The translations under genes and the position numbers were made by a program. The notes below the pieces were generated by a model that was given only the letters and a program-made list of their open reading frames with translations, did not search any database and was not told where the DNA came from. A stretch of 25,792 nucleotides of DNA. It comes from a virus. The stretch's first letter is position 1; each line of letters starts with the position of its first letter. Positions 16,702 through 25,545 of this stretch are shown piece after piece. The DNA lies in IMG/VR virus record IMGVR_UViG_3300036770_003827, positions 1 through 25,792 of that record. One strand, 5' to 3'.

Positions 16702-18327
16702 ATGCCAGATACAACAACTACTAATTTATTCGACGGTTTGTACCCTTCAGTTTTTAAAAAAATAGATAATACTGATATACAAGTTAATGGATTCCAAGCA
16801 TATAAATCGTGGACTGTAATATCCGGTAGTTCTACTAGTAGTTGTTTACCATTAACTGCTATTTACAATAATTTACCTAGCTTACCTTCATTAGGAACAA
16901 CATTAACATATAATGATGCTACTAATATCGATGGCAGTTTGCAAACTGTTACATATTACTCTGTTAATCATATGTTTTATAAACGTAGAACTCAACCATA
17001 TGATAATTATAGCCAAACTGACTTGAATTTTATCAATAAAGGTTTATTTGAATCTGCATCTATTTTATCATTTCCACAAAAGAAGATTGGGGAAGGAATT
17101 AAAGTAGCTTCGTTTAAAATGACAGGAAGTTATAATGTAGGATCTGTATATAGTAGTGGTATGTATGGATCATCATCTTACGCATCGACTGGATCTGTTT
17201 TTTTATATACAGATCGATATGGAAATGTTTTAGATCAATCATTTAATACTGCGTCAATTATTAATGATGTTATTTGGTATGAAGGATTTAACGAATATTT
17301 CGATATATCTAGAATAACATATGAGTCAAATAATATATCATATGTTCCAGGTGTTCCCACTACTACAAATGCATTAATGCCAGTAGGCTTAAGTGCTAAT
17401 TTTAGTAGTAGTAGTTATATTAAGTATAATTTGCCAGGTGTATACAATCGAGATAAAGATTATGCTATTTCATTTTATATTTCTGGTGCTAATATAACAA
17501 ATAATAATCAATTGGTATTAGCTAAAGCATCTAGTTCAATGCAAGCTCAATACCCGTTTCAAATTCAATTAAGTGGAAGTAATCAATTGATATTTGATGT
17601 TGCTGGGACAACATCGTATAAAACACAACTTACATCGTCTGCATTAGTTAATCAATGGACTCACGTTTTATGTCAAAAAACCGGAAGTTCAATTGAAATG
17701 TATATCAATGGCACATTACATGCATCAGCAAGTAACTTAACTTTATTAACTTCTGATTGTTCTCCATTTACTGCATCAGATGCTAGGATTGATAATCAAT
17801 CTCCTTTATATATCGGCGGATATGGATCTAGCTCTATGAATTTAAATGGAAAACTTGATGAAATACGAATTTATAATAAATCACTAACAACTACAGAAAT
17901 TGGATATTTAGCTGATAGAACAGAGGGTGGTACATTTATTCAAACGGCAACTGTTGGTAATATTTTTGAAAAACAAGGAGTTGTTGTTTTATCGACTGTA
18001 GATTATAGATATAAAAATTTACTAAATTCAGCCTATACTGCGTCTTATCAAAGTACTAAAACTTTATATGAAATGGCTGTTACAGTTCGAATTGACCAGG
18101 GCGATTATAATATGTCTACTAATGTTTCGTTAACAAAAGATGATAACATAACATATCGTTGTTTTGTTAGTGGTAGCGATTTTGCTCCTTATATAACTAG
18201 TATAGGGTTATATGATCAAGCAGGACAATTACTTGCAATAGGTAAATTGGCTCAACCTGTACGTAAACGTATAGACGTTGATATGAATTTTTTAATTCGA
18301 ATTGATTTAGATAGGAATTTAAAATGA
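16702..18327 (+). CDS. Virion protein with LamG/concanavalin A-like domain (probable adhesin or decoration)
   Basis: 541 residues. N-terminal 230 residues are beta-rich and conserved-looking (GLYPSVFKKIDNTDIQVNGF, FNINKGLF-like and QKKIGEGIKVASFKMTGSYN). About residues 232-403 are a LamG-like jelly roll: DKDYAISFYISGAN, VNQWTHVLCQKTGSSIEMYI, NGTLHAS, PLYIGGYGSS and LNGKLDEIRIYNKSL TTTEI give the classic order of strands ending in 'DE(I/V)RIYN..L'. Such domains bind sugars or protein ligands on cell surfaces. The C-terminal 45 residues (YITSIGLYDQAGQLLAIGKL ... LIRIDLD) repeat the end of the upstream 15411 gene product. Its stop overlaps the next start (ATGA). Probably a tail-tip or peripheral protein that touches the host surface. 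Confidence 0.68.
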   Translation: MPDTTTTNLFDGLYPSVFKKIDNTDIQVNGFQAYKSWTVISGSSTSSCLPLTAIYNNLPSLPSLGTTLTYNDATNIDGSLQTVTYYSVNHMFYKRRTQPYDNYSQTDLNFINKGLFESASILSFPQKKIGEGIKVASFKMTGSYNVGSVYSSGMYGSSSYASTGSVFLYTDRYGNVLDQSFNTASIINDVIWYEGFNEYFDISRITYESNNISYVPGVPTTTNALMPVGLSANFSSSSYIKYNLPGVYNRDKDYAISFYISGANITNNNQLVLAKASSSMQAQYPFQIQLSGSNQLIFDVAGTTSYKTQLTSSALVNQWTHVLCQKTGSSIEMYINGTLHASASNLTLLTSDCSPFTASDARIDNQSPLYIGGYGSSSMNLNGKLDEIRIYNKSLTTTEIGYLADRTEGGTFIQTATVGNIFEKQGVVVLSTVDYRYKNLLNSAYTASYQSTKTLYEMAVTVRIDQGDYNMSTNVSLTKDDNITYRCFVSGSDFAPYITSIGLYDQAGQLLAIGKLAQPVRKRIDVDMNFLIRIDLDRNLK

Positions 18328-18860
18328 TACGATTAAAACAATTATTACGAGAAATGTCTGAATCAGATTTAAAACGTTGTTTAAAGAAAATAAAAAACAA
18401 TGAATTTAAAATTATAGGTGCCGGAGATAATGGACGTGTTTATGAAATTGATGGTGAAGATAAAGTTTTTAAAATTACTAAAGAACGAGATGAATATCAA
18501 GTAGCAGCACGTATAGTAGATAAACACGCAACATATTCTACATTTATACCAGTATATTATGTTAATGGGTCTGATATGTTTATAATGGCTAATGCAGAAC
18601 CATTACCCGAAACAATAAAGCGAGAAATTGATATGTTTATGCGAGATTTTGGTGCGTTTGCTAGGGAACAAGGCGGTGAAGTTTCTATATTCGAATTTAT
18701 AAAACAAACAGATTCAGTAAACAAACAATTGAATAATTTTTTAAATGCATTAGAAATAGATGTAGAAAAACTTGGAATCCCGGAATTTGATTTAGATTTA
18801 GATTTTAGATCGGAAAATGTCATGATGTGGAATAATACTATGGTATTAGTAGATTGGTAG
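18324..18860 (+). CDS. Minimal protein-kinase-like protein, possibly packaged in the capsid
   Basis: 178 residues; TAGGA precedes the ATG, which overlaps the upstream stop. Kinase landmarks in order: glycine loop G32-A-G-D-N-G37-R-V39, nucleotide Lys in VFK (K50), a possible helix-C Glu (E57), catalytic-loop-like D160-F-R-S-E-N165 (D-x4-N), and a DFG-like Asp D177 in LVDW, where W178 is the last residue. So the chain ends at the metal-binding Asp, with no activation segment or later C-lobe helices; typical kinases have over 250 residues. The first ten residues (IRLKQLLRE) are basic/hydrophobic and end in L-x-E, the cleavage consensus of T4-type prohead protease, reminiscent of the capsid-targeting peptides of T4 internal proteins. 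Kinase-like fold is likely; activity and packaging are inference. Confidence 0.65.
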   Translation: MIRLKQLLREMSESDLKRCLKKIKNNEFKIIGAGDNGRVYEIDGEDKVFKITKERDEYQVAARIVDKHATYSTFIPVYYVNGSDMFIMANAEPLPETIKREIDMFMRDFGAFAREQGGEVSIFEFIKQTDSVNKQLNNFLNALEIDVEKLGIPEFDLDLDFRSENVMMWNNTMVLVDW

Positions 18861-20812: not shown

Positions 20813-21295
20813 ATGCGAAAAAATCACTTTCATAGTGCCAGCAACTCAAAACGAGCTGCAGCATTAAAACATGGATATAAATCTGGTTTAGAACATGTTG
20901 TTGCAGAACAAATACAAACTGCTGCATATGATTTGAAATATGAAACAGAATCATTAAAATATATAGTACCAGAATCTAAACATAAATATACTCCAGATTT
21001 TATATTTACAAAACGAGATGGCACTACCATGTATATAGAAACAAAAGGACGTTGGACTACCGCTGATCGCGTAAAAATGAAACACGTTTTAGCATCAAAT
21101 CCTGGAATTGATATTCGCATGATATTTCAGAATCCAAATCAACGTTTATCAAAAACAAGCAAAACTACATACGAAGAATATGCACGTAAACTAGGAATAA
21201 TTTACGTTGCAAAAAAAGAAATACCCGCAGAATGGTTTGCTGAATGTTTAAAACCAGGAGAAGAACCAGTAACAATTAAAACTTTTTTTAAATAA
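20813..21295 (+). CDS. Holliday-junction resolvase, T7 endonuclease I (gp3) family
   Basis: 160 residues (T7 endonuclease I has 149). The PD-(D/E)xK site is complete: E27 in SGLEHVVAEQI, D62 in KYTPDFIF, and E76-T-K78 in MYIETKGRW; these correspond to T7 E20, D55, E65 and K67. Then follow KMKHVLASNPGIDIRMIFQN and a C-terminal W (EWFAECLKPGEEP), typical of the family. It acts as a dimer, cutting four-way junctions and branched DNA. T4 itself uses the unrelated endonuclease VII (gp49) for this. It starts 4 nt behind a gene that follows a late-type element, with no own promoter or ribosome binding site visible, so it is probably made late and used to debranch DNA before packaging. Confidence 0.87.
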   Translation: MRKNHFHSASNSKRAAALKHGYKSGLEHVVAEQIQTAAYDLKYETESLKYIVPESKHKYTPDFIFTKRDGTTMYIETKGRWTTADRVKMKHVLASNPGIDIRMIFQNPNQRLSKTSKTTYEEYARKLGIIYVAKKEIPAEWFAECLKPGEEPVTIKTFFK

Positions 21296-21484: not shown

Positions 21485-22429
21485 ATGAAGAATCTAAAAC
21501 TGTTACAATTATTAGAATCAGTATTAGGTAAAGGTAAATCAACCTCGGGCGATAACATTGCGTTCTTTTCTCCATTTCAATCTCATTATAAACCGAAATT
21601 AGAAATTAATATTAATACAACTAATTCTGGAGAAAATACTTGGCATTGTTGGATATCTGATAAAAAAGGTAGAAGCATAGCTTCTTTATTCAAACAACTC
21701 AATTTACCTAAAGAACGTTTTGAACAACTTAATCGTATTATAGAATCTGCAAAGTATCGTAATACTAATACAGAAACCAAACAAAACGTTGCATTGCAAT
21801 TACCAAATGAATATGCACCACTTTGGATAAAAAAATCAACACCTGATTATCGAAATGCTGTTCATTACTTAACACAAAGAGGCGTTACGGTTTTTGATAT
21901 TTTAAAATATAGAATTGGGTATTGTGAATCTGGAGAATATTCTGGCAAAATTATAATTCCTAGCTATGATGCAACTGGCCAGTTGAATTACTTCGTAAGT
22001 CGAGCATTTTACAAAGCAGACAAACAAAAACATAAGAATCCTAAAATATCAAAAGATATTATTGGATTTGAAATGACTATAAATTGGTCTGAACCGATTG
22101 TATTATGTGAAGGAGCATTTGATGCGATTGCAGTTAAACGCAATGCAATACCATTATTCGGAAAAATAATTCAACCAGCATTACAAAAGAAAATTATAGA
22201 AGAACGCGTAAAAAATATTTACATATGTTTAGATGCCGATGCATTAAAAAATGCATTATCAATTGCAGAAAGATTTATGGCAGAAGGTCTTAATGTTTAC
22301 TTTGTTGAACTTCAAAACGAAGATGCATCAGAATTAGGATTTCAACAAATTACAGAAATTATAGAAAATACTGACTTATTAACATTTGAACGTGTTATGG
22401 AGTTAAAAATGGGATTGCTATGGAAATAA
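21485..22429 (+). CDS. 61: DNA primase, TOPRIM type (T4 gp61 counterpart) with degenerate zinc ribbon
   Basis: 314 residues (T4 gp61 is 342). The TOPRIM core is clear: VLCEGAFDAIAVKR with E209-G-x-x-D213, and YICLDADA with D250-x-D252, the metal-binding residues of DnaG/gp61 primases. Upstream, GKIIIPSYDATGQLNYFVSR (about 154-173) is the usual primase core entry. The N-terminal region keeps the layout of the zinc ribbon (F28-S-P-F-Q32 ... KPKLEIN ... WHCWIS58 ... GRSIASLF), but where CPxC and CWxC would be expected it has S29-P-F-Q32 and C55-W-I-S58, so only one of four ligands remains. It makes RNA primers with the replicative helicase. It overlaps the next gene by 10 nt. Confidence 0.82.
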   Translation: MKNLKLLQLLESVLGKGKSTSGDNIAFFSPFQSHYKPKLEININTTNSGENTWHCWISDKKGRSIASLFKQLNLPKERFEQLNRIIESAKYRNTNTETKQNVALQLPNEYAPLWIKKSTPDYRNAVHYLTQRGVTVFDILKYRIGYCESGEYSGKIIIPSYDATGQLNYFVSRAFYKADKQKHKNPKISKDIIGFEMTINWSEPIVLCEGAFDAIAVKRNAIPLFGKIIQPALQKKIIEERVKNIYICLDADALKNALSIAERFMAEGLNVYFVELQNEDASELGFQQITEIIENTDLLTFERVMELKMGLLWK

Positions 22430-25400
22430 AACAAATTGATAAAATATTTCACGTTTCAGATATACACATTCGTACTTTAAAACGACATACTGAATACCGT
22501 CAAGTATTTCAAAATTTATTTGATACAATAAAAAGTCGAGCTACTAAAAATAGTGTAGCCGTTGTAACAGGAGATATTGTTCATAGCAAATTAGATATGT
22601 CTCCAGAATTAGTTCAAATGCTTGTAGATTTCTTTAATGGATTTACAATACCTACAATTGTTATTTTAGGTAATCATGATATGAACTTGAACAATATGCA
22701 TCGAGTTGATGCTGTAAGTCCCGTTCTAGATGTTATTCGTAATCCAAATATTCGTTTTGTTAAAGACAATGGACTTTTTGAATTTGGCGGCATAACATGG
22801 AATCATATGGCAGTTGATAAAACGCCTGCAGAATACATACGAGCAAAAGACTTTGATGCCTCATATAAAATTGCACTTCACCATGGTGCGGTTAATACTG
22901 CTAAAACGGATATCGGTTATCAAATATCAAATGAACATGTTACAACTGAATTATTTGAAGGGCATGATATTACACTTTTAGGTGATATTCATAAACCAGC
23001 TCAGTTTTTAGATGCCGAACGTACCATTGCATATCCAGGCTCACTTATCCAACAAAATCACGGTGAAGCATTAGACCACGGTATATTAGTATGGGATACG
23101 GAATCTAGAACGGCTGAATTTGTACAAATTGAAAATGATTATGGTTATGTAACATTAGAAACTCAAGGCGAAAAAATAGTTTCACACCCACACAGAATGC
23201 CACGCAAACCTCGTATACGAATCAAGTTTAATGGAACGAGTGCTGCGGATATGAAAAAACTTATTGCAACTATTCGAAAAAAATATGATGTACAAGACAT
23301 AACAATTCAAAGAACTATTGAACAAGCTAATTCTTCAACTACATCAAACTTAGCAATAGGTAATGTACGAGATGTTGAATATCAAAATACATTGTTAACG
23401 GATTATATTGATTCACACTTTCCTCAAGCAACTCCAGAAGAAACAGATGCAATACGACATATTAATCGTACGATTAATTCTAAACTTCCTGCAGTAGAAT
23501 CTATACGTCACGTAACATGGCATCCCATTTCATTTGAATTTGATAACATGTTTTCATATGGCGAAGGTAATGTATTAAACTTTGAAAATCTTTCTGATGT
23601 ATGCGGATTATTCGCAGCAAATACATCAGGTAAATCATCTTTGTTAGATGCAATAACATATACTATATTTGATAAATGTAGTAAAACTGGAAAAGCTAAT
23701 GAAGTTTTAAACAATAAAAAAACTTGGTTTCGAGGCGTCTTTAAATTTGAAATGAACGGCGTTACTTACGTAATTGAACGTAGAGGTACACAAAATAAAA
23801 AGAAAGAAACACACGTAAAAGTTGATGTTGATTTTTATACAGATTCAGAGAATTTAAATGGCGAAGAGCGTAGTGAAACAAATAAAAATATACGTCGTTA
23901 TTTAGGAACATATGATGACTTTATTTTAACAGCATTTTCGCTTCAAGCAGACAACAATAACTTTATTGAAAAGTCACAAAAAGAACGTAAAGATTTACTG
24001 TCACAGTTTTTAGATATTACAGTATTTGAACAGCTTTATCAACTTGCTGCAGATGAAATAAAAGAAACTGCCGGCCGTTTAAAAGATTATAAAAAAACAG
24101 ATTTTGCTGAATTGATTATATCGGCTGATAATGTTATATCAGAAAATCAAGAAACAATTACTACATTAGAACAACAAGAAGATGTTTTGCAAGATCAACG
24201 TAGCAATTTGCAAGAACGTATCGTTGAACTTATCGAAACAAAAATGCCAACTACATATGCTGGTCCAGATATCAATGAATTGAAACGACAAGAACAAGCA
24301 TTAGTAAAACAAATAGAAAATATTCAATTAGAAATAGAAACTGCAGAACGAGACTTAGACACATTAAACATAACGATAGAAGAACAAGAAGCACAGTTAG
24401 AAACATATGATATAGAATCTATTACATCTCAAACAAAACTTCACGCTTCGAAGTCATATTCAGTTAATACATTATTACAAAAATATCGTCAACAAAAGGA
24501 AATAGTAAATGCAAAACAAGAAAAGATTGATCATCTTTCCGACCATGAATATGATCCGGAATGTAAATACTGTACATCTAACGTTTTCGTACAAAATGCA
24601 ATCGAAGCTCAGAATACAATTGATCAAGATCGAGACATATTAACAAAAATTCATGAATCAATTGTAACGTTAAATCAAGAAATTGAAACATTAGAACCAG
24701 TATTCGAACAAACAAAACAACTCAATGAATTACGTAATGCATTAGCAACTAATCGCATAACTTTAGAACGCAATGAATTACAACTTCAAATACTAGAAAG
24801 TGATTTACAAACACGAGAATCGGAACTAGAAACAGCAATTGAACGTCAAGAATCATTTCGCCAAAATGAAACTGCAATTAAACATAATGAAACGATTGAT
24901 ACGCAAATAGAATCTTGCAAACAACAAATTGTTACGCTGTCCGATGAAATAAAAACAATTCAAGGACAAGTTAAAAATAACTATGGTGCAATAGAAGTAG
25001 CAAAAACACAAAAGGCTATGGCTATGCAAAATTTAGAACGATATCGGGCATTAGAAACTGAATACAAGGCATATGAATATTATTTAGAGTCTGTTAAGCG
25101 TGATGGTATTCCGTATGATTTAATTTCAAAAGCACTACCAAAAATAGAAGCAGAAATAAATAATGTACTTAATCAGATTGTAGATTTTAATATGGTTTTA
25201 AATACTGATGGTAAAAACATCAACGGCTATATTATTTACAATGAAGATGATTTTTGGCCTTTAGAATTAACTAGTGGAATGGAACGGTTTATATCTTCAT
25301 TGGCAATACGTATAGCGCTTATCAATGTTTCGGCATTACCTCGTCCTAATTTTATTGCAATTGATGAAGGTTGGGGAAGTTTAGATGCAGATCATATTTC

Positions 25401-25545
25401 ATCAGTAGTTAATCTATTTGATTATTTTCGTACTAAGTTTGATTTCTCAATTATTATTTCACACGTCGATTCAATGCGCGATATGGTAGACAATTTAATT
25501 GAAGTAAATAAAACCTCAGGATTTAGTAAGATTAATCATTCCTGA
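22420..25545 (+). CDS. 47-46: Mre11-Rad50 (gp47-gp46) fusion: recombination nuclease/ATPase in one chain
   Basis: 1041 residues, uninterrupted. N-terminal Mre11/SbcD phosphoesterase (about 1-320) with all motifs: D14-I-H16, G51-D52-I-V-H55, G84-N-H-D87, H154-H155-G, and G188-D-I-H191-K-P. A linker (about 320-365) leads into a Rad50/SbcC ATPase: FDNMFSYGEGNVLNF, Walker A AANTSGKSS with G404-K405-S406, Q-loop region FSLQADNNNFIEKSQKER, two long coiled-coil arms (about 540-700 and 735-910), zinc hook C715-K-Y-C718, signature LTSGMERF (950-957), Walker B FIAIDEGWGSLD (978-989) and H-loop SHVD (H1015). In T4, gp47 and gp46 are separate and resect double-strand ends for recombination-dependent replication. 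The usual first Gly of Walker A is Ala here. It overlaps the primase by 10 nt. Confidence 0.92.
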   Translation: MEIKQIDKIFHVSDIHIRTLKRHTEYRQVFQNLFDTIKSRATKNSVAVVTGDIVHSKLDMSPELVQMLVDFFNGFTIPTIVILGNHDMNLNNMHRVDAVSPVLDVIRNPNIRFVKDNGLFEFGGITWNHMAVDKTPAEYIRAKDFDASYKIALHHGAVNTAKTDIGYQISNEHVTTELFEGHDITLLGDIHKPAQFLDAERTIAYPGSLIQQNHGEALDHGILVWDTESRTAEFVQIENDYGYVTLETQGEKIVSHPHRMPRKPRIRIKFNGTSAADMKKLIATIRKKYDVQDITIQRTIEQANSSTTSNLAIGNVRDVEYQNTLLTDYIDSHFPQATPEETDAIRHINRTINSKLPAVESIRHVTWHPISFEFDNMFSYGEGNVLNFENLSDVCGLFAANTSGKSSLLDAITYTIFDKCSKTGKANEVLNNKKTWFRGVFKFEMNGVTYVIERRGTQNKKKETHVKVDVDFYTDSENLNGEERSETNKNIRRYLGTYDDFILTAFSLQADNNNFIEKSQKERKDLLSQFLDITVFEQLYQLAADEIKETAGRLKDYKKTDFAELIISADNVISENQETITTLEQQEDVLQDQRSNLQERIVELIETKMPTTYAGPDINELKRQEQALVKQIENIQLEIETAERDLDTLNITIEEQEAQLETYDIESITSQTKLHASKSYSVNTLLQKYRQQKEIVNAKQEKIDHLSDHEYDPECKYCTSNVFVQNAIEAQNTIDQDRDILTKIHESIVTLNQEIETLEPVFEQTKQLNELRNALATNRITLERNELQLQILESDLQTRESELETAIERQESFRQNETAIKHNETIDTQIESCKQQIVTLSDEIKTIQGQVKNNYGAIEVAKTQKAMAMQNLERYRALETEYKAYEYYLESVKRDGIPYDLISKALPKIEAEINNVLNQIVDFNMVLNTDGKNINGYIIYNEDDFWPLELTSGMERFISSLAIRIALINVSALPRPNFIAIDEGWGSLDADHISSVVNLFDYFRTKFDFSIIISHVDSMRDMVDNLIEVNKTSGFSKINHS

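Follow-up and report, generated by a model that had tools for sequence, protein, structure and literature searches.

The gene at 22420..25545 (+ strand) of the 25,792-nucleotide stretch of viral DNA analysed here (the window) encodes Mre11 (SbcD) and Rad50 (SbcC) homologues fused in one 1041-residue phage protein. The fusion is real, well conserved, functionally sensible and of an already published type, and the gene very probably supplies the phage with its own Mre11-Rad50 (SbcCD-type) DNA-end-processing enzyme as a single chain that serves recombination-dependent replication. The fusion proposed in the initial annotation is borne out by a single frame, unbroken from the ATG at 22420 to the TGA at 25545, that carries both sets of domains and has a predicted product of ~118 kDa. 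Residues 8-193 match Pfam Metallophos (calcineurin-like phosphoesterase, PF00149, E 4.5e-12), residues 322-1039 match PHROG 77, a phage SbcC family (E 1e-55), and both ATPase lobes match PDB chains of archaeal Rad50.

Genomic setting

The order of genes in the window is a phage endonuclease I gene (T7 gp3-type Holliday-junction resolvase; 20813..21295, + strand; PF05367, E 2.1e-32), a TOPRIM DNA primase gene (21485..22429, + strand; phrog_47, E 1.5e-28), which overlaps its downstream neighbour by 10 bases, and then the fusion gene. The primase adjoins the fusion gene in 106 of the 122 loci with room for it, and endonuclease I is found nearby in 95 of 99. Baseplate wedge genes, gp25-like among them, lie upstream of the endonuclease I gene, and on their account the contig can be assigned to a contractile-tailed phage; the virus is an aquatic one, and the source record, a 25.8-kb viral contig, is probably a partial genome. 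Elsewhere in the window, the product of 16702-18327 contains a concanavalin A-like lectin domain (PF13385, E 1.2e-19) and is probably a tail protein or an adhesin. The 178-aa protein encoded at 18324-18860, which has a close relative at L022 2622-3158, shows by eye some kinase-like features (GAGDNGRVYEI...FKIT near its start and DLDFRSENVMMW...LVDW at its end), and a Pfam search at 1e-3 gave no match to it.

The Mre11 half and its metal site

The calcineurin-like phosphoesterase domain of Mre11 occupies residues 8-225 (22441..23094, + strand), as judged from the PF00149 match, motif conservation and a structural model, and is followed at residues ~231-298 (23110..23313, + strand) by the Mre11 capping (accessory) domain, for which the model has strands and a helix and which is assigned by position. 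The motifs of this half are D14xH16, GD (51-52), GNHD (84-87), HHG (154-156) and GDIH (188-191), and they are invariant in 79/79 aligned homologues, a count that here and below excepts contig ends and positions beyond later frame breaks. All five Mre11 motifs had initially been reported as present. The phosphoesterase fold and motifs I-IV, intact in 79/79, do place the protein in the Mre11/SbcD family, but the canonical GHxH of motif V is absent and Asp189 stands at the usual metal-binding His.

With Asp189 at the place of a metal-binding histidine, nuclease activity should not be assumed, and it might be asked whether this half has lost or changed its nuclease function and the protein acts mainly as an ATP-dependent end-binding or tethering factor. 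GDIH is found in all 79 homologues and in the fusion loci of a further alignment except that of PAU, while the unfused comparison proteins of phages and E. coli have GHxH. However, the remaining metal ligands are all invariant, Asp is able to bind Mn2+, and a dN/dS of 0.06 in the nuclease half argues for a working site; this reading of the protein seems unlikely. Mimivirus R555, an accepted fusion, is reported to have the same motif V Asp (PMC3175470) and GDIH is therefore counted as a variant site, the claim to a canonical active site being lowered accordingly.

The Rad50 half

The initial report of a complete set of Rad50 ATPase motifs and a CKYC zinc hook in the same frame stands. The N-terminal ATPase lobe (23515..24099, + strand; PDB matches, conservation and model) contains the Walker A motif (398-406) and the Q-loop (Q509), and the C-terminal lobe (25060..25542, + strand; PDB matches and conservation) contains the signature TSGMER (951-956), the Walker B motif IAIDEG, the D-loop SLD and H1015, so that the full Rad50/SbcC set of Walker A, Q-loop, signature, Walker B, D- and H-loops flanks a coiled coil. 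The latter, residues ~561-880 (24100..25059, + strand), is made of long helices in the model and has a higher dN/dS of 0.21, and the CxxC zinc hook C715-K-Y-C718 (24562..24573, + strand) sits between its two long predicted helical arms, with both cysteines present in 79/79. Also invariant in 79/79 are GKS of Walker A (404-406), Q509, SGME (952-955), DEG (982-984) and H1015, and in a 47-sequence alignment the D-loop LD (988-989) is invariant.

The junction

The junction was viewed in an AlphaFold2 model of the monomer built from the 47-sequence alignment (mean pLDDT 82, pTM 0.45). A flexible stretch at residues 299-318 (23314..23373, + strand; pLDDT <50 at 300-311) leads from the capping domain to a helix-loop-helix at residues 319-354 (23374..23481, + strand), the putative Rad50-binding domain of Mre11 according to model and alignment. 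Its helices, 319-333 and 339-354, are modelled with confidence (block pLDDT up to 93), and in a sequence alignment they coincide with the helices at the C-terminus of E. coli SbcD and of T4 gp47. Between the second helix and the first Rad50 strand of the model, at 366-375, there is a connector of 11 aa (residues 355-365; 23482..23514, + strand). It had been supposed that ~45 residues (320-365) merely bridge the region that the Rad50-binding helices would normally occupy; given the two helices in this region, the model instead indicates that the helices by which Mre11 binds Rad50 are retained inside the fusion and that the true new linker is only ~11 residues long. This agrees with the 9-12 residues that, by a calculation on the T. 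maritima complex (PMC3175470), would bridge the ~28 A separating the C-terminus of Mre11 from the N-terminus of Rad50. As a single chain in which Mre11 precedes Rad50 and a short linker follows the helix-loop-helix, the protein conforms to the definition of the published fusions.

Is the fusion genuine?

Two scans of viral contigs yielded 308 relatives in the first and 504 in the second, of which the best 80 were kept; ~130 distinct viral contigs were fetched and 163 loci counted, some of them sharing a contig. The same uninterrupted domain order was found in the ~130 contigs and in the cultured Microcystis phage Mel-JY01. A frame break between the two parts had been named as grounds for rejecting the fusion, but motif V of Mre11 and the Rad50 P-loop (Walker A) are joined by one unbroken frame in 161/163 loci; L170 is also uninterrupted, having merely been missed by the motif search pattern, and L172 is interrupted within its Mre11 half. 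For four parts of the gene the median dN/dS was computed from pairs at 86-97% identity: Mre11 part, 0.063; residues 301-368, 0.058; first Rad50 lobe, 0.044; coiled coil, 0.21. The tested parts, junction included, are under strong purifying selection.

An apparent fusion can arise trivially, by a faulty assembly join or the loss of a stop codon between two normally separate genes, and there is a precedent in Listeria phage LMTA-57, where a single ORF results from one missing base. In the present case, however, relatives of 28-88% identity from many samples, Mel-JY01 among them, have the same join and the junction is under selection; an assembly join is excluded because independent relatives share the uninterrupted order, and the probability that the fusion is any such artefact is vanishingly small. 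LMTA-57 itself (L084 2501-5530) was considered as a natural SbcD-SbcC fusion and rejected, as it has one base fewer than near-identical relatives (3030 vs 3031), which, where annotated, mostly have two genes; the one-base difference probably reflects an error in sequencing or a recent mutation.

A few homologues are interrupted. L085 2953-7178 (LR756508, a 484-kb phage) and L172 2992-6226 each have the fused gene as two ORFs, and the break falls at one and the same position of the Mre11 half, after GDIHK.Q and before the YPGS.IQQN motif. The gap holds a 305-aa ORF with a match to a TnsA-like endonuclease in L085 and is just ~130 bases long in L172. An Rfam search of the window, L085 and L172 revealed no known intron, and the split could be explained by translational bypass, by an intron or by an insertion of the intein-like or homing kind. 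In a single case, L022 4774-7920, a stop or frameshift occurs in the coiled coil after residue ~764, with the remainder in a second ORF.

Are separate proteins also produced?

A fused frame need not mean that the fusion is the working form, as an internal start or proteolysis might also yield separate proteins. Codon 377 is ATG in 79/79 homologues, and it was the only candidate near the junction when these 79 were searched for a conserved internal start giving a complete separate Rad50. It was rejected, as initiation at M377, which lies past the first Rad50 strand (366-375), would cut that strand away; moreover, nothing resembling a ribosome site precedes the codon in the window and codon conservation around it is not raised (0.146 vs a gene mean of 0.102). 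The next conserved start codon upstream, M278, lies inside the capping domain. A conserved internal start, the other refutation envisaged initially, is therefore not to be found in the sequence data of the homologues, which lend no support to a separately made Rad50, and it is very unlikely that separate products rather than the fusion do the work.

Function and proposed mechanism

Foldseek matches the model of the fusion to Mre11-Rad50 and other SMC-like head structures. Eight large relatives (110-190 kb, perhaps incomplete) each have one Rad50-type AAA_23 match, which is always the fusion, and one RecA/UvsX homologue. The large relatives G001, G005 and G007 also have extra stand-alone metallophosphoesterases of 219-247 aa far from the fusion gene. 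In T4, gp46/gp47 serve recombination-dependent replication (PMC3175470). By analogy, and given that the gene follows those for endonuclease I and primase, the resection and tethering of DNA ends in recombination-dependent replication is the most likely role of the fusion protein.

The dimer architecture, the docking of the helices in cis, the nuclease activity and the pathway are what we infer from these observations. The protein would be expected as a homodimer, in which two chains pair via their Mre11 halves, ATPase heads and zinc hook to form the equivalent of the usual 2:2 complex. The helix-loop-helix of each chain would rest against the base of a Rad50 coiled coil, just where it sits when the two proteins are separate (the model being of a monomer only), and the ~11-residue connector would do no more than tie the two halves together covalently. 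The nuclease would presumably be gated by the binding and hydrolysis of ATP, and the enzyme may trim and tether DNA ends to let the phage RecA/UvsX initiate recombination-dependent replication, a pathway in which the neighbouring primase and endonuclease I would act as well. The ~118 kDa single-chain enzyme could also be a handy reagent for structural work on Mre11-Rad50, because its stoichiometry is fixed by the gene.

Relationship to known fusions

Although the fused arrangement had initially been greeted with surprise, a paper of 2011 had already presented Mre11/Rad50 fusions from Mimivirus (R555), from Bacillus phage 0305phi8-36, from several bacteria and plasmids and from eukaryotes (Yoshida, Claverie and Ogata; PMC3175470). 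The same study found that R555 homologues abound in viral fractions of aquatic samples, where their scaffolds also carry primase and T7-gp3-like endonuclease genes, the neighbours that are also seen at the window gene. R555 shares with the window protein the domain order, the capping and helix-loop-helix regions and the motif V Asp, but it is 1351 aa long and belongs to viruses of eukaryotes, whereas the window fusion has 1041 aa and lies on the contig of a contractile-tailed phage. Among predicted viral folds, those matching best over the full length come from the Mimivirus relatives Tupanvirus, Harvfovirus and Terrestrivirus (21-24% identity).

Among cultured phages, Mel-JY01 encodes a 1066-aa fusion (WWT39521.1) close downstream of its primase gene; it is a more distant relative, ~40% identical, and is annotated just as an AAA domain protein. 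The jumbo phages Tenacibaculum pT24 and PTm1, Chryseobacterium MA9V-1 and Sphingomonas PAU (gp288) have single proteins of ~1300 aa with the same order, which were 23-24% identical to the LR756501 fusion used as query and not among the matches listed for the window protein. Homologues with this order also occur in 484- and 735-kb uncultured phages, that of the 484-kb phage having the insert in its Mre11 half. SbcC/SbcD was judged nearly universal in jumbo phages by a 2021 review of 224 of them (PMC7824862). T4 gp47/gp46 and E. coli SbcD/SbcC are the same two enzymes and have the helix-loop-helix, but unlike the window fusion they are encoded by two separate genes and have GHFH or GHIH as motif V. 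A scan of bacterial genomes gave one 35%-identical fusion on a 4.1-kb MAG contig (L152, JAQUPX010000020.1), which may be a misbinned phage contig, and a plasmid search found no fusion.

The frequency of such fusions in uncultured phages, a question left by the initial annotation, can now be answered: they are common in aquatic phages, often labelled just "AAA domain", "DNA repair" or "metallo-phosphoesterase". The proposal made in 2011 that phages are the owners of many R555 homologues from the environment (PMC3175470) is borne out by the long contigs, and the abundance of the fusions in these, their presence as sole copy in large relatives and the invariant motif V Asp go slightly beyond the literature found. 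In a small tree, thinly sampled and with R555 left out, the fusions sampled all lie on one side of a single edge (bootstrap 100) and the two-gene pairs sampled all lie on the other, and a single fusion event thus suffices for that sample. It is possible, as a tentative proposal, that the phage fusions of the window type, the Tenacibaculum, Chryseobacterium and Sphingomonas jumbo fusions and R555 go back to one old fusion event, and that they may represent a covalently tethered, Asp-variant subclass of Mre11-Rad50 that replaced the two-gene system in a large and abundant group of aquatic phages.
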